NCBI RefSeq assembly: GCF_028707975.1
Contig: NZ_JAQVZX010000013.1
Coordinates: 1 to 37,813 of the forward strand
Source: Syntrophomonas sp.
Lineage (GTDB): Bacteria > Bacillota > Syntrophomonadia > Syntrophomonadales > Syntrophomonadaceae
Direction: 5' to 3'
DNA: 37,813 bases
The notes under the pieces were generated by a model. That model ran no database searches. It saw nothing but the letters and a program-made list of their open reading frames with translations, and was not told the origin of the DNA. Below are positions 8,841-33,666 of this stretch, piece by piece; within the stretch, counting starts at the first letter, position 1, and every line of letters starts with the position of its first letter. Both the position numbers and the translations under genes were made by a program.

Positions 8841-9325
8841 TGAGCAAAATTATTCAAGTTGGTATGGCTGACTATAAGTTGGCTACAGCTCCAGACAAAC
8901 TGATAACCGCTGGTCTGGGTTCCTGTATCGGTATATGTCTTTATGATAAAGCGATTAAATTAGGAAGTTTGACCCACATAATGTTGCCTTCCAGCAGCCA
9001 GGCCAAAAACACCTCCAATGAAGCCAAGTTTGCCGATACTGGAATAAAGCTGGCTATCAGGGAAATGGAAAAAAAGGGGGCCATACCCGCGCGCCTCCTG
9101 GCTAAAATAGCTGGAGGTGCGCAGATGTTCAAGTTTTCAGGGGAGAGCGATATCATGAAAATTGGAGAGCGTAACAGCATAGCGGTGAAGGAAAACCTGG
9201 AAGTACACCGAATTAAGTTGCTCTCCAGCGATACGGGCGGAAACTATGGCCGTACCATTATTTTTGATCTCGAAACCGGGGATTTGCTGGTGAAGACCAT
9301 TGGACACGGGGAGAGAGTTATTTAA
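8840..9325 (+). CDS. cheD: Chemoreceptor glutamine deamidase CheD
   Basis: CheD deamidates receptor glutamines and increases CheC phosphatase activity by complex formation. The catalytic cysteine is C29 in GLGSCIGICLYD and the histidine is H46 in LTHIMLP, matching the papain-like Cys-His arrangement of the family. Length is 161 residues, as usual. It overlaps cheC by one base and abuts the sigma factor gene with no gap (TAA then ATG), so the three genes are tightly coupled. The combination of CheC and CheD indicates a Bacillus-type rather than an enterobacterial adaptation circuit. Confidence 0.96.
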   Translation: MSKIIQVGMADYKLATAPDKLITAGLGSCIGICLYDKAIKLGSLTHIMLPSSSQAKNTSNEAKFADTGIKLAIREMEKKGAIPARLLAKIAGGAQMFKFSGESDIMKIGERNSIAVKENLEVHRIKLLSSDTGGNYGRTIIFDLETGDLLVKTIGHGERVI

Positions 9326-10111
9326 ATGAAACCCGATTTGAAGCCAGATACCATGTCATTATGGATTCGACTAAAAGAGAATGAGGACATTGAGGCCAGA
9401 GACCAGTTGATTATTCACTTTGCACATCTGGTAAAGTATGTAGCTAGCCGTCTGGCCATTCATCTTTCTTCACTGGTTGAACTGGATGAGTTGATTTCTT
9501 ATGGGATTGAGGGCTTGATAGACGCTATTGAGAAATTTGACCATAAACGAAATATCAAGTTCGAAACTTATGCTTTAACCCGAATAAGGGGTTCAATGAT
9601 AGATGGCTTACGTTCCATGGATTGGATTCCCGTTTCATTACGTCAGAAAAGCAAGCAACTGGAAAAGGCTTATATGACCGTTGAAACCAGGTTGGGACGG
9701 TCAGCCAGCGATTCGGAGGTGGCTGAAGAATTAGGCCTGAACCTTGATGAATTGGCGGTACTCTTAAGGGATGTAGCTGCAACCACGATAATATCTTTAG
9801 ATGACTTTTTACTCGGCGAAGATGGGGATCAGAAGAAAAAACGCATGGTTGACATCTTGGAAGACCATAACAGCGTAAGTGCTCTGGATTTAGTGGAATT
9901 CAACGAAGTTAAGGATTTACTTGCCAAAGCCATTTCCCGTTTGCCAGATAAAGAAAAAATGGTGGTCTATTTATACTATTACGAAGGTTTAACTCTGAAG
10001 GAGATAGGTGCTGTCATCAGCCTATCGGAATCACGAATATCCCAGCTGCATACCAAGGCCATACTGAGGTTAAGGGGAAGCCTGAGCAAAAAGAAAAACC
10101 TGGTGGTTTAA
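9326..10111 (+). CDS. sigD: Flagellar/motility sigma factor (SigD/FliA family)
   Basis: This sigma-70 family factor of the FliA/WhiG/SigD type directs RNA polymerase to late flagellar and chemotaxis promoters. Region 2 is clear (DELISYGIEGLIDAIEKFD, then FETYALTRIRGSMIDGLR, the family hallmark), region 3 follows (SEVAEELGLNLDELAVLL), and region 4 ends the protein (LTLKEIGAVISLSESRISQ). Length is 261 residues. The ATG directly follows the cheD stop and the Shine-Dalgarno (GGGAGAGAG) lies inside cheD. Position after cheD is the same as B. subtilis sigD. No FlgM is present in the window, so anti-sigma control cannot be judged here. Confidence 0.95.
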   Translation: MKPDLKPDTMSLWIRLKENEDIEARDQLIIHFAHLVKYVASRLAIHLSSLVELDELISYGIEGLIDAIEKFDHKRNIKFETYALTRIRGSMIDGLRSMDWIPVSLRQKSKQLEKAYMTVETRLGRSASDSEVAEELGLNLDELAVLLRDVAATTIISLDDFLLGEDGDQKKKRMVDILEDHNSVSALDLVEFNEVKDLLAKAISRLPDKEKMVVYLYYYEGLTLKEIGAVISLSESRISQLHTKAILRLRGSLSKKKNLVV

Positions 10112-10125
10112 GAGGGGGCTGAATT

Positions 10126-11529
10126 ATGGCAGAGGAAAAGAAAATCGATGGGTACGTCAAAACAATAGTTCATAAGGATATGATGCGGGCCTTCATCGAA
10201 ATTATTGGCCCTGAGGCGGAAGGAGTACCGTGTTCGCTGGAACAGGTCAAAAAAGCACTGGCGGAAAAAGGGGTAGTATACGGAATAAATGAAGAGGCTC
10301 TCCAGCAAGCCGTGCTAGAAGAGAACTGGCATCGTGAAATATTGGCAGCGGAAGGTTTGGTACCGGTTGATGGGATTAATGCCTCAATTATCTTCAAGTT
10401 TCCTTTGCCTAAAGAAAGGATGGGCCCTAAAGTAGATGACAAAGGCAATGTTGATTACCATGATTTGGGCTTGATTTATAATGTTAAAAAGGGCACCTTG
10501 CTGGCTGAGAGGATTCCAGCCGTTGAAGGCCAGCCTGGGATTAATGTTATGGGAGTGCAGATTCCCCCAAAAAGGGCCAAAGAACTGCGCATACCACGGG
10601 GCAAAAACACGATAGCGGATAACGAAGAGAGGTTCCTGTATGCAGCCACTGATGGACATGTAACCATAATTGACAATAAAGTCGTCATCGATCCTATTCT
10701 GCAGATTAATGGAAACATAGATTATTCAACGGGAGACATAGATTTTATTGGAAATATCTTAATAAGCGGAGTGGTAAATAGCGGCTTCAAGGTTAAAGCT
10801 GAAGGAGATATAGAAATAAATGGGTTTATTGAAGGTGCTGATGTTACGGCCGGGGGTAATATTGTAGTTAAAGGGGGCATTACCGGCGGCCTAAAGAGCA
10901 TGGTAAAGGCTGGGGAGAGCATTTATGCCCGGTTTATTGAAAATTCCCGGGTGGAAGCGAGAAAAGATGTAATCGTAAAAGACGCCATAATGCAATCCTT
11001 CGTTAAGGCTGGAGGTAGTGTCCGGGTTAGCGACAGAAAAGCCATAATTGTTGGCGGTTGCATTCAGGCTTTTCAAGAAGTCGAATCCAAAGTTCTGGGT
11101 TCTCAGTTGGCCACCCAAACCGTTGTGGAGGTGGGAATTAATCCACTGTTCAGGGCCGAATACCAGAAATTAATTAAGCAAAGGGTCGAAAAGAAAAGGT
11201 TGTTTGACAACCTCAGCCATAACTTGCAGATCTTTCAGAGAAGTGGAGTATCGCCGGACAGTCTTAGTGAGAACAAGAGACGAACCTTATTAAAGATGTT
11301 GGATGATTTTAAAAACCTGCGCCAGGAACTAGCCGAGATGGAAGAGAGAATAATATATCTGGAAGAGGAGTTTGAAAAGGGCAGTATGGCCAAGGTTAAG
11401 GTATTAGAGACAGTATATCCGGGAGTGCGGGTAAGCATAGGGCATTCTATGTATATTGTAAATGATACAGCAAAATTCACCGCTTTTGTTCTGGATCAGG
11501 GGGAAGTAAAGTTAACTTCGCTCCGCTAG
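10126..11529 (+). CDS. FapA/DUF342-family polymer-binding-like protein
   Basis: This 467-residue protein belongs to the FapA (flagellar assembly protein A, DUF342) family. An N-terminal alpha/beta region (about 1-170) is followed by a right-handed beta-helix made of short glycine-rich turns such as GDIEINGFIEGADVTAGGNI and VVKGGITGGLKSMVKAGESI. A coiled-coil segment follows (about 345-430: EYQKLIKQRVEKKRL and EMEERIIYLEEEFEKG) and then a short beta tail. FapA-type proteins are linked to flagellar assembly in Vibrio, but the biochemical role is not settled; here the link rests on its position between sigD and the swrB-position gene. The start has GAGGGGG upstream. Confidence 0.85.
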   Translation: MAEEKKIDGYVKTIVHKDMMRAFIEIIGPEAEGVPCSLEQVKKALAEKGVVYGINEEALQQAVLEENWHREILAAEGLVPVDGINASIIFKFPLPKERMGPKVDDKGNVDYHDLGLIYNVKKGTLLAERIPAVEGQPGINVMGVQIPPKRAKELRIPRGKNTIADNEERFLYAATDGHVTIIDNKVVIDPILQINGNIDYSTGDIDFIGNILISGVVNSGFKVKAEGDIEINGFIEGADVTAGGNIVVKGGITGGLKSMVKAGESIYARFIENSRVEARKDVIVKDAIMQSFVKAGGSVRVSDRKAIIVGGCIQAFQEVESKVLGSQLATQTVVEVGINPLFRAEYQKLIKQRVEKKRLFDNLSHNLQIFQRSGVSPDSLSENKRRTLLKMLDDFKNLRQELAEMEERIIYLEEEFEKGSMAKVKVLETVYPGVRVSIGHSMYIVNDTAKFTAFVLDQGEVKLTSLR

Positions 11530-11548
11530 GGCTAAGGAGGAAGATATA

Positions 11549-11869
11549 ATGACCATTAGAAGCGTTGATATGCAAGTTCTCGTACAGAAGGTTGGCGATG
11601 TAGCCAGGATACAACAAAGCCAGCAATTGGAGAATAATAGCAGACAGCAAGAGTTTGTACAACAGATTAGCCAGCAAACGGATAAGAATGCAAAAACCGT
11701 AAACCAGATGTTGAGAAATGAACAAGCCTATGTACATGAAAAACAGGAAAAGGAGGAATCAGGAAAAAAGAAGCGTACCAAAAAAGGGAAAAGCGAGAAA
11801 ATGGCGAATAAGGACAAGATGGAGGCGCGGCTCAATAACCCAGGTAATAAGCTGGATATTACTGTTTGA
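11549..11869 (+). CDS. Small coiled-coil/basic hypothetical protein of the flagellar operon
   Basis: I do not recognise a named family. The 106-residue protein has a glutamine/asparagine-rich, probably helical N-terminal half (residues 1-60; MQVLVQKVGDVARIQQSQQL) and a highly charged lysine-rich stretch (about 65-95; KKKRTKKGKSEKMANKDKME). There is no membrane segment or signal peptide. A perfect Shine-Dalgarno (AAGGAGG) lies upstream of the ATG, so it is surely translated. Its TGA overlaps the TTG of the next gene (TTGA), indicating translational coupling with the swrB-position membrane protein. The basic tail might contact acidic partners or nucleic acid; this is a guess. Confidence 0.8.
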   Translation: MTIRSVDMQVLVQKVGDVARIQQSQQLENNSRQQEFVQQISQQTDKNAKTVNQMLRNEQAYVHEKQEKEESGKKKRTKKGKSEKMANKDKMEARLNNPGNKLDITV

Positions 11870-12603
11870 AGAAGGTGAATACCATAGGCAGCTATTCTAT
11901 AATTCTGGTCTTGTTTCTGGCGGCGATGCTTATCTTTATCATTGCGCAAAGGTCTTCTCATATGGGTACTTATTCTCAGGAACTCAAGCAAACTGTACTT
12001 GAAGCCAGTGCCATAAGAGATGAACTGGAAAAGATGATGGAGAACAGTTTAAGCATTTCTGAATTGATAGTTGATCGCCTAGATACTGGAGCAAGCAGTG
12101 CGAACCACAGTTTATCAAGGGAAGAAGATTTGCTTGCTGTTCAAGAAGAGGAATCGACTTCTTCTCTGCTCCCGCTTGGTGAAAAAAATGTCAGTGGAGT
12201 AAAAGTAAGGATTTATGAACTGGCTCGGGATTTGGAGATGAATAGCAAAGAATTGATTCAGCTGCTTAAGGATATGGGTTATAGTTATTCCCACCATATG
12301 AACCAGCTCAGTCAAGAAACGGCAAAAATCATTAAAGCCAAAATCTTGGAAAATAACCCGGCTTCTCCACCTGCTTCCTTACTGGAGACGGATGTTTTTA
12401 CTGAAGAAGAAACAGCCATAAAGGAAGAGCGACCCTTGGATGAGTTTTCCCTGCTTGAGCTGAGAACCGCCCACCCCTACCTGGCTGTACGAAGCCTGCA
12501 TGAAAAGGGCTATAGTGTCAAAGAGATTGCCCAGATACTGGAACGGGGTCAAGGAGAAGTAAGTTTGATACTTAACCTGACCCAAAAAAAATCAGTGATC
12601 TAA
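11866..12603 (+). CDS. Membrane-anchored SwrB-position protein with an IF2 N-terminal-like domain and HTH-like C-terminus
   Basis: The 245-residue protein begins with a single transmembrane helix (about residues 11-27, SIILVLFLAAMLIFIIA), then a helical region (about 35-72), an acidic linker, and at about 112-160 a segment, VKVRIYELARDLEMNSKELI, that closely resembles the first domain of IF2. The infB in this same window starts [20 protein letters not shown]. The C-terminus (about 206-240, LHEKGYSVKEIAQILERGQG) looks like the helix-turn-helix-like end seen in SwrB/YlxL-type proteins. B. subtilis swrB lies in the same place, between sigD and rpsB, encodes a single-pass membrane protein and promotes flagellar export activation. 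Homology to SwrB is inferred from position, topology and C-terminus. The TTG start overlaps the preceding stop. The combination of domains is unusual. Confidence 0.82.
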   Translation: MKKVNTIGSYSIILVLFLAAMLIFIIAQRSSHMGTYSQELKQTVLEASAIRDELEKMMENSLSISELIVDRLDTGASSANHSLSREEDLLAVQEEESTSSLLPLGEKNVSGVKVRIYELARDLEMNSKELIQLLKDMGYSYSHHMNQLSQETAKIIKAKILENNPASPPASLLETDVFTEEETAIKEERPLDEFSLLELRTAHPYLAVRSLHEKGYSVKEIAQILERGQGEVSLILNLTQKKSVI

Positions 12604-12640
12604 GGACACAGTCCATGCCCTTGTCACTCTTTTTTTTTGC
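12604..12640 (+). terminator. Possible weak terminator of the flagellar/chemotaxis operon
   Basis: A run of nine T residues (12630-12638) follows the stop codon within 30 bases, preceded by a weak dyad (GACA near 12605 with TGTC at 12622). The T-run is convincing but the stem is short, so this is a tentative call. Confidence 0.4.
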
Positions 12641-12653
12641 TTAAACTTGACGC

Positions 12654-12701
12654 CACTGCAAAAAACCCTTTTTGTTGCATAAGGGTTGCATGAATATACA
12701 A
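12654..12701 (+). repeat. Dispersed ACTGCAAA element, copy 1
   Basis: This copy reads CACTGCAAAAA, then TTGCATAAGGG and TTGCATGAATATACAA. It aligns base by base, with one gap, to the copy before dxr (19027-19073, opposite strand) and more loosely to the other two. The last palindrome fits the pattern TGnATnnnnATnCA, that of an ArgR operator, though no function is shown. Confidence 0.65.
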
Positions 12702-12722
12702 AACGCTGGTGAAGGTGAAAGC

Positions 12723-12745
12723 GGGCGGTCGAAGACCGCCCCTAC
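12723..12745 (-). repeat. REP-like hairpin 1
   Basis: A perfect 8 bp stem, GGGCGGTC/GACCGCCC, with loop GAA is followed directly by CTAC. Read on the minus strand this is GTAG followed by a palindrome, the layout of REP elements recognised by REP-associated tyrosine transposases. Confidence 0.6.
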
Positions 12746-12780
12746 AATGTCTTGCGGTCGCTAGTTGTTGCGCCTGATTC

Positions 12781-12806
12781 GGAACGACACGGGGGTCGTT
12801 CCCTAC
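12781..12806 (-). repeat. REP-like hairpin 2
   Basis: A second perfect 8 bp stem, GGAACGAC/GTCGTTCC, with loop ACGGGG is again followed directly by CTAC. It has the same orientation and layout as hairpin 1 but a different stem sequence. Confidence 0.6.
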
Positions 12807-12810
12807 ATAG

Positions 12811-12902
12811 CCTGCGGTCGCTATTAAGGATGCACCCTGCGGGCACTTCTGATGCACCCTGCGGGCACTTCTGATGCTCCCTGCGGTCGCTATTAAGGAT
12901 GC
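12811..12902. repeat. Short direct repeats (23 bp flanking pair, 22 bp tandem pair)
   Basis: The 23-mer beginning CCTGCGGTCGCTATTAAGGA occurs at 12811-12833 and again at 12880-12902. Between them the 22-mer beginning GATGCACCCTGCGGGCAC is repeated exactly in tandem at 12829-12850 and 12851-12872. There are no spacers as in a CRISPR array. A related ACTATTAAGG sequence lies at about 33911, before rbfA. Confidence 0.75.
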
Positions 12903-12952
12903 TGAGCGGTATATTTATGCGCACTAATGCGTATTTATTACTTTTTGCAGTG
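12901..12952 (-). repeat. Dispersed ACTGCAAA element, copy 2 (inverted)
   Basis: On the minus strand this reads CACTGCAAAAAG and ends in GCATAAATATACCGCTCAGC. It matches 33721-33770 at 45 of 50 positions by eye. It forms the right inverted end of the composite block before rpsB. Confidence 0.75.
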
Positions 12953-12977
12953 ACATCAAACTTTTGATTTCCCCAAC

Positions 12978-13007
12978 TTGCCAATCAATATAATTTTGTG
13001 ATATATT
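12978..13007 (+). promoter_or_regulatory. Candidate rpsB promoter
   Basis: TTGCCA (12978-12983) and TATATT (13002-13007) are separated by 18 bases and fit a housekeeping sigma factor. Transcription would begin near 13014, giving a leader of about 100 bases before the rpsB TTG. The gap is just downstream of the repeat block, so a local promoter would be needed if the flagellar operon ends at the T-run. Confidence 0.45.
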
Positions 13008-13113
13008 ATCTTGTGGAAAATACACACGCCAGTGGACTTCCTGAAAGGTGCTAGCGATAGTCTTCAAGAAGGATGAGACGGCGGAGGAAAAAACTGAAAG
13101 GGAGTGCATATTT

Positions 13114-13812
13114 TTGTCAGTAGTAACCATGAAGCAACTCCTGGAGGCAGGAGTGCATTTCGGACACCAGACTCGCCGGTGGAACCCCAAGATGGCAACC
13201 TATATTTATATGGAGAGAAATGGAATCTATATTATTGACCTGCAGCAGACAGTTAAGAAATTTGATGCGGCCTATGATTTTGTCAAGAGTGTGGCTGCGG
13301 CAGGAAAAGGGGTTCTCTTTGTCGGTACCAAGAAACAAGCGCAGGAAACGATTAGAGAAGAAGCTGGCAGGTGTGGCATGTATTTTGTGAACCAGCGCTG
13401 GCTGGGAGGCATGTTAACCAATTACAAAACCATCAAAAGGCGGGTTCTTCGCCTGAAGGAACTGGAAAGACAGGAAGCCGAGGGGGCTTTTGAGGTATTG
13501 AGTAAAAAGGAAGTAGCCCGCCTGCTGAACGAAAGAGAGCGTCTGGAAAGGTTCCTGGGAGGTATAAAAGAAATGGACAAACTGCCAGGAGCAGTTTTTG
13601 TAGTAGATCCCCGCAAGGAAAGAATAGCGGTAGCGGAAGCCCGCAAGCTTAATATTCCTGTGGTAGCCATAGTGGATACAAACTGTGACCCGGATGAAAT
13701 TGACTATGTTATACCGGGAAATGATGATGCCATACGGGCGGTGAAATTAATCTCCTCCAGAATAGCCGATGCAGTATTGGAGGGTAAACAAGGGGAACAA
13801 ATTACGGCATAA
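13114..13812 (+). CDS. rpsB: 30S ribosomal protein S2
   Basis: S2 binds at the head-body junction of the small ribosomal subunit and is among the last proteins to assemble. The N-terminus [20 protein letters not shown] is the classic family start, and [23 protein letters not shown] and [20 protein letters not shown] follow. I choose TTG at 13114 because GGGAG lies about 8 bases upstream. The ORF-track start (13048) would add 22 residues that the family does not have; an ATG at 13129 is the other option. The result is 232 residues, normal. A terminator follows, which separates it from tsf more than usual. Confidence 0.97.
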
Positions 13813-13819
13813 AGGGGAG

Positions 13820-13850
13820 AGGGGGTGTTGGTGTAATCCGCCCCCTTTTT
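13820..13850 (+). terminator. Rho-independent terminator after rpsB
   Basis: The stem AGGGGGTG pairs with CGCCCCCT (one G-T pair) around an 11-base loop, followed directly by TTTTT at 13846-13850. It lies 8 bases after the rpsB stop, so some or all rpsB transcripts end before tsf. Confidence 0.82.
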
Positions 13851-13897
13851 CGTGCTATTTTCGTGCTAAGAATTAGCGTAAAGAGGATTTTTAAAAT

Positions 13898-13989
13898 TAA
13901 CCCCCCGTAGCTGAGCGTAATTCCTATCTGGAGTACCGTAGGGTGGAGGACAGAACCACCAATGAAAATAAAGGCATTACAGGGGGTTA
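13898..13989. repeat. Intergenic element with TAACCCCC inverted ends and an internal REP-like hairpin
   Basis: TAACCCCC (13898-13905) and GGGGGTTA (13982-13989) form inverted ends around about 76 bases. Inside, GTAG (13938-13941) is followed by GGTGG and CCACC (13956-13960) as a short hairpin, again a GTAG-footed REP-like arrangement. The coding tracks here show nothing gene-like. It is a small non-coding insertion in the rpsB-tsf gap; short inverted ends alone could be chance. Confidence 0.4.
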
Positions 13990-14014
13990 TTATAGACGCT
14001 GATTTACACAGATA

Positions 14015-14045
14015 TATTATGATATATATCAGAAGGACCGTCCCC
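14015..14045 (+). repeat. Dispersed GGGGACGGTCC element, copy A
   Basis: The 31-mer starts TATTATGATATATATC and ends AAGGACCGTCCCC. Its reverse complement occurs at 33676-33706 with a single difference. This copy lies only about 45 bases upstream of the tsf start codon. Confidence 0.85.
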
Positions 14046-14088
14046 ATGATATATTATCTTGCTAACCAAATTTAAGGAGGCTAATAAT

Positions 14089-14733
14089 GTGATTACTGCT
14101 GAAATGGTTAAAGAACTTCGGGAGCGAACTGGTGTCGGCATGATGGATTGTAAAAAGGCCCTGGTCGAGACCAATGGTGATATGGAAAAGGCGATTGACG
14201 AATTAAGAACCAAAGGCCTGGCCAAGGCAGCAAAAAAAGCTGGCCGGATAGCCAGCGAAGGGGTGGTAACTTCTTATATACATGGTGGTGGTCGGATAGG
14301 GGTATTGGTGGAAGTGAACTGCGAGACTGATTTTGTCGCCAAAACCAACGATTTCAAGCAACTGGCCTATGATATTGCCATGCAGGTTGCTGCTTCCAAT
14401 CCGGAATACCTTAATCGTGAGAGCGTGCCCCAGGAAGTTATTAACCGGGAGAAAGAAATCTTGAAGGCCCAGGCTCTGGAAGAAGGCAAACCGGAAAAGG
14501 TTATCGAGAAAATGGTGGAAGGTCGGGTAGAAAAGTTTTTTAAAGAACGCTGCTTAATGGAGCAAGCCTTTATAAAGGACCTTGATAAAAGCGTTCAAGA
14601 ACTGGTAAATGAGAATATAGCCCGAATGGGTGAGAACATAAATGTAAGAAGGTTTGCGCGTTACGAAGTGGGCGAAGGAATTGAAAAAAAGAGCTGTGAT
14701 TTTGCCAGTGAAGTTATGTCCCAGATCAAATAA
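14089..14733 (+). CDS. tsf: Translation elongation factor Ts (short form)
   Basis: EF-Ts is the nucleotide exchange factor that releases GDP from EF-Tu. The UBA-like N-terminal domain carries the hallmark [16 protein letters not shown], followed by the core ending near [19 protein letters not shown], and a compact C-terminal part. The start is GTG at 14089: AAGGAGG (14074-14080) is spaced 8 bases from it, whereas the ORF-track TTG at 14059 lies upstream of that site. The length of 214 residues is that of the short EF-Ts class, which lacks the longer core of E. coli EF-Ts (283). Repeats and a terminator lie between it and rpsB. Confidence 0.96.
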
Positions 14734-14778
14734 AGAGCAGTATGCTGAATGCCTGGTAACTCCGAAAATAATGTTTTA

Positions 14779-14796
14779 GCTTCTGCTTTTAGAAGC
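14779..14796 (+). promoter_or_regulatory. Small hairpin in the tsf-pyrH gap
   Basis: GCTTCT and AGAAGC form a perfect 6 bp stem around GCTTTT, just before the pyrH Shine-Dalgarno. It has no T-run, so it is not a terminator; a role in mRNA processing or start-site exposure is possible but unproven. Confidence 0.3.
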
Positions 14797-14814
14797 AGTC
14801 CGGGAGGTAATCAT

Positions 14815-15531
14815 TTGCAAAAGCCCAAGTTTAAACGTGTAGTATTAAAACTTAGTGGAGAAGCACTGGCCGGCCATAATGCTTCTGGCATTGATAACGA
14901 AGTATTGAATTCCATCGCCCAGCAGGTGGTGGAAGTAGTACAGCAGGAAGTGCAAGTAGCCATAGTTGTTGGGGGAGGTAATATTTGGCGTGGTGTAGCT
15001 GGAAGCGCCAAGGGCATGGATCGAGCTACTGCGGATTATATGGGGATGCTGGCTACAGTAATTAATGCCCTGGCCTTGCAAGATGCCTTGGAACAGGAGG
15101 GTATGGGAACCCGGGTTATGTCAGCCATTGAAATGAAAGAGGTCTGTGAGCCCTATATCCGGCGCAGGGCTATTCGCCATTTGGAAAAGGGACGGGTGAC
15201 TATTTTTGCCGCTGGAACCGGCAACCCTTATTTTTCCACAGATACCGCAGCCGCTTTGAGGTCAGCTGAAATTGAGGCTGAAGTGATACTTATGGCCAAA
15301 AAAGTGGATGGGGTCTATGATGCAGATCCGGTTAAGAACCCGGCGGCTCATAAATTCGACCGTTTGAATTACATAGATGTCTTAAGCCGGGGATTAGGGG
15401 TAATGGACTCCACAGCAGCATCCCTTTGCATGGATAATGGGATTCCCATTATTGTCTTTGATTTGACCCAGGAGGGTAATATTTTAAAGGCAGTAATGGG
15501 TGAAGATATAGGAACCTATGTAGGGAGGTAA
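14815..15531 (+). CDS. pyrH: Uridylate kinase (UMP kinase)
   Basis: PyrH phosphorylates UMP to UDP in pyrimidine nucleotide synthesis and belongs to the amino-acid kinase fold, not the P-loop NMP kinases. Visible motifs are [13 protein letters not shown] at the N-terminus, [30 protein letters not shown], and [21 protein letters not shown] start it at TTG 14815 with GGGAGGT (14802-14808) upstream; the ORF-track start at 14749 adds 22 residues before the Shine-Dalgarno site. Length is 238 residues, standard. Its stop overlaps the frr Shine-Dalgarno region (GGGAGGTAA). Confidence 0.96.
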
Positions 15532-30661: not shown

Positions 30662-31015
30662 GTGAGTGAGAGTTTGAAAAAAAGCTATGCTGTTTTGGGT
30701 TTTGCCCAGAAGGCCGGAAAGGTATCTTCAGGAGCTTTGGCGGCAAAATCCAGTATAATAAGGCGAAGAGCGTTTCTGTTAATTATTAGCAATGATATAG
30801 CGGAAAATACCAAGCAGGGCTTGATCAGCAGTTGTCAGAAACAGAAGATTCCCTGGATCATATTGGGCAACAAGTATGAGATCGGGGCTTCCATAGGGAA
30901 GGCATACCGGGTTGCCGTGACGATAAATGACCAGGGAATGGCTGAGTCCCTGATAAAATCGCTGGAGGCTGTCGGAGCAAAAGTAAGCACGGGGGTGGTT
31001 GAATGGCAAAAATAA
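30662..31015 (+). CDS. ylxQ: L7Ae-family RNA-binding protein YlxQ
   Basis: YlxQ is a ribosomal protein L7Ae-like K-turn-binding protein. The 117-residue sequence has the family's features: [33 protein letters not shown], and [20 protein letters not shown]. Start is GTG 30662 (TTG 30674 possible). It overlaps the infB start by 13 bases and ylxR ends 1 base before it, so the ylxR-ylxQ-infB genes are coupled, as in B. subtilis. Confidence 0.93.
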
Positions 31016-33666
31016 GAGTACATGAACTGGCCAAGGAACTGGGAATTGCTAGCAAAGAAATGGTTGAAGTTCTGGTAAAAATGGGTTTAGATGTAAAAAA
31101 TCATATGAGTACGGTGGAGGAATCACAGGCCAGCTGGGTTAAGAAGCGTTTAAGCGCCAAGGATGAGAGCAACGATAAACAAGCAACTAAACCAGTTGCC
31201 GGGGATGAAGCCACAGGAAAGCGTTCCGGGGATGCACCAAGGTCAGCTCCCCAGAAAAGACCAGGCATACAGGCGCATAATTCCACCAGTCCTGGTGCGG
31301 GTTCGCGTCCTCAAGAGGGTTCCAGACCAACTGGCAGTTCAGAAAGGCGCGATTATTCTGGAAACCGAGAAGCAGCTCCAAAAAGGGATGAAAGACGCCC
31401 AATCAGCCCTCAATCAGGCAAAGAAACGACTAGCCCGAGGAACAACACTGCGCCTCGGCCAACAGCGCGACCAGAGCAGCGAGGTTCCGGGCCAACTGGG
31501 AGACCAGATAATAGAGCTCCCGGCGCAAGCGGCAGACCAGACAACAGAGCTCCTGGAGCAACTGGGAGACCAGATAATAGAGCTCCCGGAGCAAGTGGCA
31601 GACCAAACAACAGAGCTCCTGGAGCAACTGGCAGACCAGATAATAGAGCTCCCGGAGCAAGCGGCAAGCGAACCCCCCAGAGAGCAGTGCCGAATAATAC
31701 CCCCAGGCCAGTATCATCTCCGGAGCGAACAAGTGAGAACAAGACCAGGGAAGCAAGTTCAAGACCATTACCCAGTGGCCCCAAAACTGCAGGTGACAAG
31801 AAAGTTGTTCGGAGAAACACTCCTGCTGCGGTTCAGCACCAGAGTAAAGACTACAGTCGCCCGGGCCGGAAAACGAAACACAAGCGCAAAAAGGAGAGCA
31901 TGGAATTTCATACCCCCGAAAGCATAAGTATTGAAGGCTCCATAATGGTTCGAGATTTAGCCGAGAAGCTTAATAAGAATCCGGCTGAAATAATGAAGAA
32001 ATTAATGGAATTAGGAATCATGGCTACTATTAACCAAAATATTGATTATGAAACTGCGGAGATAGTATCCAGCCTCTATGATGTTAAAGTTGAACGAGAG
32101 CTTTCCGAAGAAGAGAAGATACTAGAAGAACTTGTTGATGTAGATGATGATGTCAAACTCAAGGCACGCCCGCCAGTTGTCACAGTAATGGGACATGTAG
32201 ACCATGGTAAAACTTCCCTGCTTGATCGTATCAGACAGGCAAATGTGGTTTCGGGAGAAGCGGGGGGTATTACTCAGCATATTGGTGCTTATCAGGTAAC
32301 GATAAAAGACAATAAGATAACCTTTATCGATACCCCTGGACATGAGGCCTTTACTGCCATGAGAGCTCGTGGGGCTAATCTCACAGATATTGTAATCCTG
32401 GTGGTAGCGGCGGATGATGGGGTAATGCCCCAGACGGTTGAAGCAATAAACCATATCAGGGCTGCCAAGGTTCCTTTTCTGGTAGCAATAAACAAAATAG
32501 ATAAACCGCAAGCTGACCCGGAAAGACTCAAGCAACAATTAACGGAATATAATATTGTCCCTGAAGAATGGGGTGGAGATACCATATTTGTTCCGGTCTC
32601 AGCTAAAAGTGGAGAAGGAATCGAAAACCTGTTGGAAATGATTTTATTGGTAGCGGAAATGAATGAAATAAGGGCTAATCCGGATAGAGCTGCTTATGGT
32701 CTGGTAATCGAAGGAGAGCTGGATAAAGGAAGGGGAGCGGTAGCCACCGTACTGGTATTGAATGGAACCCTCAAGATAGGGGACTATGTAATCTGTGGAA
32801 CCAATTGGTGCAGGGTGCGGGCTATGATTGATGATCGGGGTAAAAGGGTGGAGTTGGCATCGCCCTCCATGCCGGTCGAAATAATGGGATGGTCCGGTGT
32901 ACCCGAGGCTGGTGGCAAAGTTCGGGTCTGTGATGAAAAAGTAGCCAAGGAAATCATCGGTCTGAGATTGAGTGAAAAGAAGATTGAAGAACAAAAACAA
33001 AGCAGCCGAGTTTCTCTGGATGAGTTTTTCCAGCAGATGAAGGATGCCGAGGTTAAGGAACTTACAATGATTATAAAAGGCGATGTCCAGGGTTCAGTAG
33101 AAGCTCTCCGGCAATCGCTACTGCGTTTGGCGACCAGCGAAGTCAAAGTAAATGTAATCCATTCAGCGGTAGGTGCTATTACCGAAACCGATGTTATGTT
33201 GGCATCTGCTTCCAATGCAATAATTATTGGCTTTAATGTAAGACCGGATAGTAAGGCTAGAAAATATGCTGAAGAAGAAAAGATAGATGTTCGCATGTAC
33301 CGGGTCATATACGAGGCTATTGAGGATGTTAAAAAAGCCATGAGCGGCCTGCTGGATCCGGAATACAAAGAGAAGTTCCTGGGTCGTGCTGAAGTTCGGG
33401 CTCTTTTCAAAGTACCTAATGTGGGAGTTATCGCCGGGTCTTATGTTGTTGACGGAAAGATTCAGAGAAATGCCAGTGTGCGGGTCTTGCGAGATGGAGT
33501 AATTGTATACGAGGGCAACCTGGCCTCGCTAAAACGCTTTAAGGATGATGCCAAAGAAGTAGTGGAAAACTATGAATGTGGCATTGGAATCAAGGATTTC
33601 AATGATGTCAAGGAAGGAGATATTATTGAAGCCTATACCATGGAGGAAATCCCTAGAGAATTATAG
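31003..33666 (+). CDS. infB: Translation initiation factor IF-2
   Basis: IF-2 is the GTPase that brings initiator tRNA to the 30S subunit. The N-terminus starts [20 protein letters not shown] (IF2 N-domain). A low-complexity proline/arginine-rich linker (about 50-295) contains a 33 bp tandem repeat. A second IF2 N-like domain follows (about 310-360, [20 protein letters not shown]). The G domain has [28 protein letters not shown] and NKID, and the C-terminal domains complete 887 residues. GTP-binding residues are intact. The operon continues to rbfA after an unusual repeat-filled gap where many Bacillota carry ylxP. Confidence 0.97.
31495..31659 (+). repeat. 33 bp tandem repeat in the infB linker
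   Basis: Five units of 33 bp encode the 11-residue [10 protein letters not shown] repeat, each preceded alternately by T and S so that the period is really 66 bp. One unit has N for D. Because 33 is a multiple of 3, all reading frames stay open, which explains the long shadow ORFs on both strands here. Confidence 0.95.

Follow-up and report, generated by a model that had tools for sequence, protein, structure and literature searches.

An IF2 N1-like domain in a SwrB-type membrane protein encoded at the end of the fla/che operon of Syntrophomonadaceae

Our analysis of the window (the whole stretch of Syntrophomonas sp. DNA studied here, 37,813 nucleotides) shows that the fla/che operon ends in a gene at the swrB position, and profile and fold comparisons indicate that the membrane-anchored, SwrB-type protein it encodes carries an insert descended from the N1 domain of translation initiation factor IF2. 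In the literature searched we found no description of an IF2 domain on a membrane protein. The gene (11866..12603, + strand; a mechanical ORF with a TTG start and a 245-aa product) belongs to the order flhA (partial)-flhF-flhG-like ATPase-unassigned gene-cheB-cheA-cheW-cheC-cheD-sigD-fapA-orf106-swrB-position gene-rpsB-tsf, and this synteny bears out a preliminary description of the same DNA, which had placed it where swrB lies, between sigD and rpsB; fapA and orf106 intervene after sigD. The closest named relative is Syntrophomonas wolfei subsp. methylbutyratica (69-70% identical), and a scan of named genomes for close relatives returned only that subspecies and an ordinary IF2 (L035). Directly 5' of the gene, orf106 (11549..11869, + strand) is conserved between fapA and the swrB gene in loci of the family and also in some other families (L157, L174, L182), and matched no Pfam family. 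Because the orf106 stop codon either overlaps with or directly adjoins the swrB Shine-Dalgarno sequence, translational coupling of the two genes is likely. An Rfam scan of 9000-15000 gave no match. Between the swrB-position gene and rpsB lies a repeat-rich stretch (12647-12959) in which 18-nt inverted arms, 89% complementary and 277 nt apart, surround several 22-23 nt direct repeats, the whole resembling a small mobile or REP-type element.

The protein begins with a single membrane helix (residues 9-27; 11890..11946), recognized in the preliminary description and borne out here by a hydropathy of 2.73 across 19 residues, and continues with a coiled-coil-like helix (residues about 30-73; 11953..12084), the IF2_N domain (residues 113-159; 12202..12342) and a C-terminal DUF6115/DUF2802-like domain containing G215, E231 and L234 (12460..12591), all on the + strand. 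The coil is seen in a low-confidence full-length AlphaFold model as part of a continuous helix spanning residues 6-89 with pLDDT mostly 55-80; this model, built on a two-row alignment and reaching a pLDDT of 56, is too poor for the C-terminal domain, which was assigned by a PF19610 match above cut-off, by DUF2802 matches in relatives and by conservation. Searching NCBIfam with the protein returned no family, and a profile search gave no match to the GTP_EFTU or IF-2 domains, so that it is not a whole IF2. Linker lengths vary widely, the proteins being about 156-389 aa long, and in two genomes (G019 and G034) the protein is far longer, at 388-389 aa, with long linkers flanking IF2_N (L085 770-1936; L092 3087-4250).

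The identity of the insert was addressed at the level of profile, fold and origin. Residues 113-159 match PF04760 (IF2_N) with 52 bits and an E of 6.2e-14 at a curated cut-off of 25.3, all 20 aligned family members match the same profile, and the whole genome contains three IF2_N matches, two in IF2 and one in the swrB-position protein. PDB sequence matches across residues 112-162 are all to IF2 of the Thermus type (E 1e-5). An AlphaFold2 model of the domain, made from six window and locus sequences, reached a pLDDT of 87.6, and the solved folds nearest to it are IF2 N domains (probability 0.99-1.00, TM 0.69-0.77, best E 0.003); no fold match falls below E 0.001, which is not surprising for 53 residues, and since the model alignment contained IF2 rows, the fold evidence depends in part on the sequence evidence. 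The IF2 N-terminal-like segment proposed in the preliminary description is thus borne out by both the Pfam match and the predicted fold. That description had left open whether the segment reflects domain capture from infB or merely a shared small helical fold. Profile-profile comparison gave E values of 4e-25 against N1 of the same family, 2e-30 against N1 of the phylum and 6.5e-7 against N2, and as the values for N1 are far better we read the insert as derived from N1, not N2. These values favor capture and speak against a merely shared fold, indicating that the insert descends from IF2 N1. The infB gene of the window, the type of the captured domain's source, lies at 31003..33666 (+ strand), with N1 at 31003-31134 and a second IF2_N at 31942-32085. 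Multiple independent captures of IF2_N are not needed, as SwrB-type IF2_N forming a single clade was not rejected (AU p 0.815); the domain tree is weak at 53 columns, and no donor can be named from it.

Within the insert, the core pattern K-I-R-V-Y-E-L-A-x-x-L-x-x-x-S-K is retained in the SwrB-type domains, and Y117 is found in 91% of them, compared to Tyr in 70% of the N1 domains of other families and His in 100% of those of its own family, so that at this position the insert is closer to the N1 of other families. The loop K-N-H-M-S-T, near-invariant in IF2, takes the form x-x-[HPQ]-[ML]-N-x in the SwrB type, where K142 and T147 are lost and Ser is replaced by Asn at 146 in 91%; the Trp found at position 155 in its own family's N1 is also changed. 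The net charge is +2 in both copies in the window, IF2 N1 and the swrB-position IF2_N. The fold of IF2_N is thus kept and the most IF2-specific surface altered, and because the KNHMST loop has changed, the ligand of IF2 may have been lost.

A class survey of 63 genomes located the fusion of IF2_N with DUF6115 in 24 genomes of 12 genera, all Syntrophomonadaceae, and in seven other Syntrophomonadaceae genera and two sister families the gene occupies this position but lacks the insert. Among 399 phylum genomes searched with the full-length profile no fused form was found outside Syntrophomonadaceae, and in 38 genomes, most of them picked because of long DUF6115 proteins, IF2_N was found only in IF2, a few short IF2_N frames among them resembling IF2 broken at contig ends. 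The preliminary description had allowed that SwrB family members might commonly carry the segment; the insert is restricted to one family and not general in SwrB relatives, so this objection falls away. Five changes of the trait are required on a tree built from six linked genes, and a single clade holding all carriers is rejected (AU p 0.0003); this pattern suggests one gain and about four losses. Having been lost several times, the insert is dispensable. Between the source genome (G000) and G001, IF2_N has a dN of 0.12 and a dS of 0.93, the linker a dN of 0.28-0.39 and the C-terminal domain a dN of 0.08; in most close pairs IF2_N is under purifying selection that is stronger than in the linkers and weaker than in the C-terminal domain, the close pair G001/G002 showing relaxed constraint (dN 0.11, dS 0.20).

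The C-terminal domain matches PF19610 (DUF6115), a SwrB-family profile of the kind that the preliminary description had proposed to look for, at 31.5 bits against a curated Pfam cut-off of 27 and extending to residue 238. In all 46 inspected loci matching the family profile (a few of them one place fetched twice) DUF6115 adjoins sigD, fapA or rpsB, and in three that lack fapA, as B. subtilis does, the family member lies between sigD and rpsB (L239-L241). A PF19610 match is also present somewhere in the B. subtilis control genome. The C-terminus had earlier been described as helix-turn-helix-like; it is better explained as an FlhF-binding domain of the DUF6115/DUF2802 type than as a DNA-binding one. 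DUF2802 (PF10975) is the C-terminal domain of FipA, an FlhF-binding membrane protein of gamma-proteobacteria whose gene sits directly after flhA-flhF-flhG-fliA and chemotaxis genes (PMC11620751). A DUF2802 search of 250 phylum genomes gave matches in 107, five of these genomes above the curated cut-off, and most matches, among the matches listed, fall at DUF6115 places; some aligned family members match weakly, and the swrB-position protein gave no match at E 0.1. In the relative L091, residues 196-249 align to DUF2802 positions 15-67 with conserved G, E and L at positions 43, 59 and 62, which are the positions of G110, E126 and L129 of FipA (domain 68-135), a comparison that uses the Pfam model and the residue positions published in PMC11620751, not FipA sequences. 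Through the register of L091 these FipA residues correspond to G215, E231 and L234 of the swrB-position protein, conserved in 46/46, 46/46 and 42/46 family members, and the spacing G-x15-E-x2-L occurs in 44 of 46 phylum proteins compared to 4% of shuffled tails. That the DUF6115 domain of SwrB belongs with the DUF2802 domain of FipA is, by these alignments, well supported.

FipA of Vibrio no longer binds FlhF when G110 or L129 is replaced by alanine (PMC11620751). Since the G, E and L residues of FipA match those conserved in SwrB-type proteins, the latter are predicted to bind FlhF. This prediction would be consistent with the genetics of SwrB, a single-pass protein that acts via FliP, depends on FliF and can be bypassed by the FliG Q132R substitution (PMC4526659), and with the binding of FlhF to FliG in Shewanella (stated in PMC11620751). 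The relation between SwrB and FipA may already have been raised around the FipA article, for example in review letters. Several further matches were seen in these searches. DUF6468, which may be a further flagellar family related to this one, was matched weakly by six of the 20 aligned proteins (best E 1.6e-4). Three more frames of the source genome (303, 315 and 176 aa; G000:C37:8146-8229, G000:C19:892-975, G000:C49:1960-2040) have weak DUF2802 matches and are probably other helix-turn-helix proteins. Outside the flagellar locus, another weak DUF6115-like match (G000:C120:15987-16301) was found within a conserved protein of some 661 aa, with frames of 661-665 aa in G001, G002 and G027.

The start codon of the gene also appears to be unusual. 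An ATA at 11884..11886 (+ strand; residue I7 of the mechanical ORF) begins 5 nt after the Shine-Dalgarno-like AAGAAGGTGA (11869..11878, + strand; 9/10 matches to AAGGAGGTGA) and, given the ATT or ATA conserved at 5-6 nt spacing in relatives, appears better supported as the start than the mechanical TTG at 11866. In 13 of the 23 readable IF2_N carriers, as well as in G020, no ATG, GTG or TTG precedes the membrane helix in frame after the upstream stop, and 19 of the 23 (18 by script and G012 by eye) have an in-frame ATT or ATA 5-6 nt past the Shine-Dalgarno sequence, which in its typical strong form reads AGGCAGGTGA. Genus g9, except G010, has ACG or GCG at the proposed place, the sister families mostly start at ATG, and AUU or AUA is also found in some relatives without IF2_N (G015, G020, G022, G024, G035). 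ATC occurs in none of the 24 sequences with an Ile codon at the start place, while it accounts for 18% of the Ile codons of the genes concerned (P 0.007). As a control, 157 of 157 copies of sigD, fapA, orf106, rpsB and tsf begin with a canonical start codon close to the conserved N-terminus; cheD and pyrH, whose anchors lie before the start, are left out of this control. In the Syntrophomonadaceae clade swrB therefore appears to start at a rare AUU or AUA. Such a start recalls that of infC, which is AUU. It also recalls the GTC start of Streptomyces sigR, which is subject to IF3 and provides a regulatory precedent (PMC5472188).

Building on the domains, their homology, distribution, gene order and conservation as observed above, we give an even chance to the reading that the protein is a flagellar adaptor of the SwrB/FipA class, whose C-terminal domain acts on FlhF and whose IF2 N1-derived insert is an extra docking module. 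The membrane helix and coiled coil would hold the protein at the membrane, probably as a dimer, while the helical DUF6115/DUF2802-type domain would bind FlhF or act at the FlhF-FliG assembly step, making the basal body competent for export. An IF2 N1 domain would then have entered the protein, between its coil and its C-terminal domain, in an ancestor shared by most Syntrophomonadaceae, and may dock a further partner next to the basal body. The first candidates would be NusA or the 30S subunit, since both are known to be bound by the N1 domain or N-terminal region of IF2: domain I of E. coli IF2 makes direct contact with NusA in pull-down and cross-linking experiments (PMC12297416), and IF2 is anchored to the ribosome through its N-terminal domain (PMC4611024). 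The altered KNHMST loop is the main argument against these partners, and together with the repeated loss of the insert it counts against a docking role. In the literature searched no contact between FlhF and SwrB was found, and the phenotypes of B. subtilis SwrB, which concern FliP, FliF and FliG rather than FlhF, count against the FlhF mechanism, just as the DUF2802 score of the swrB-position protein, below cut-off, and the reported absence of FipA from Bacillus (PMC11620751) count against an adaptor of the SwrB/FipA class. Our confidence declines from FlhF binding through the partner of IF2_N to translational regulation.

The preliminary description had also hinted at a link between ribosomes or RNA and flagellar export, for which we found no support, the loop most conserved in IF2 being altered; a ribosome or RNA link of the insert is possible. 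In its fullest form, IF2_N would keep the N1 ligand and tether NusA, along with RNA polymerase, or the 30S subunit to the flagellar base, coupling flagellar gene expression to assembly. The IF2 contacts cited above and the retained fold, core residues and net charge favor this, yet the substitutions described above fall in the most invariant loop of IF2 and NusA here, at 382 aa, seems to have no room for the C-terminal acidic repeats involved in E. coli, and we consider such a tether unlikely. Wide variation in linker length and about four losses would instead suit an insert that is a neutral passenger, or serves as a structural spacer, within a length-tolerant linker, but purifying selection in most pairs (G001/G002 excepted), the family-specific Asn146 and retention of the insert in so many genomes and genera make this improbable as well.

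Since the next fold matches after IF2 are the DNA-binding domains of RacA and BldC (TM about 0.65-0.69), IF2_N, whose fold resembles MerR-type winged helices, might bind DNA, as a chromosome anchor or in transcription at the membrane; the E values of these matches, however, exceed 0.4 at identities of 10-17%, and the sequence homology is to IF2 and not to MerR families, making this very improbable indeed. The insert and the AUU/AUA start could also be linked, the protein itself or IF3-type discrimination setting its translation as for infC or sigR. Both traits map near the same branch and the start is proposed in most readable carriers, but the start codons are deduced from sequence, relatives without IF2_N share them, most g9 carriers have other codons there, and because the two traits share ancestry their correlation is weak evidence; we think the link quite doubtful. 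We regard as similarly doubtful a membrane-bound sensor in which the captured domain and the start together connect translation initiation, by IF3/IF2-type discrimination and 30S or NusA contact, to flagellar assembly.

Returning to the SwrB/FipA-class adaptor, if the relation between the two proteins holds, SwrB, as a Gram-positive activator of export, and FipA, as a polar partner of FlhF, form one superfamily, and the mode of action of SwrB becomes a direct question of whether it binds FlhF. For its part, a flagellar gene with a conserved AUU/AUA start would join the few known cases of start-codon choice as a regulatory device. Compared to IF2 N1 (PF04760; T. thermophilus 4b3x; E. coli domain I), the insert has homologous sequence and the same predicted fold but sits on a membrane protein without the GTPase, with a changed KNHMST loop, including Ser to Asn at 146, and a changed Trp 155. 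FipA shares the layout of membrane helix, coil and C-terminal domain with G-x15-E-x2-L, and the gene place just after the flhA-flhF-flhG-fliA-che operon, whereas the protein described here is longer, has the IF2_N insert, comes from another phylum and has FlhF binding as a prediction only. Also close is B. subtilis SwrB (YlxL), the activator of flagellar type III export, which occupies the same place after sigD and before rpsB and has a single N-terminal membrane helix and probably the same C-terminal DUF6115, to which the protein studied here adds the IF2_N insert; and whereas the 2015 SwrB paper described SwrB as conserved only in Bacillus, we find DUF6115 in 156 of 296 good phylum genomes.
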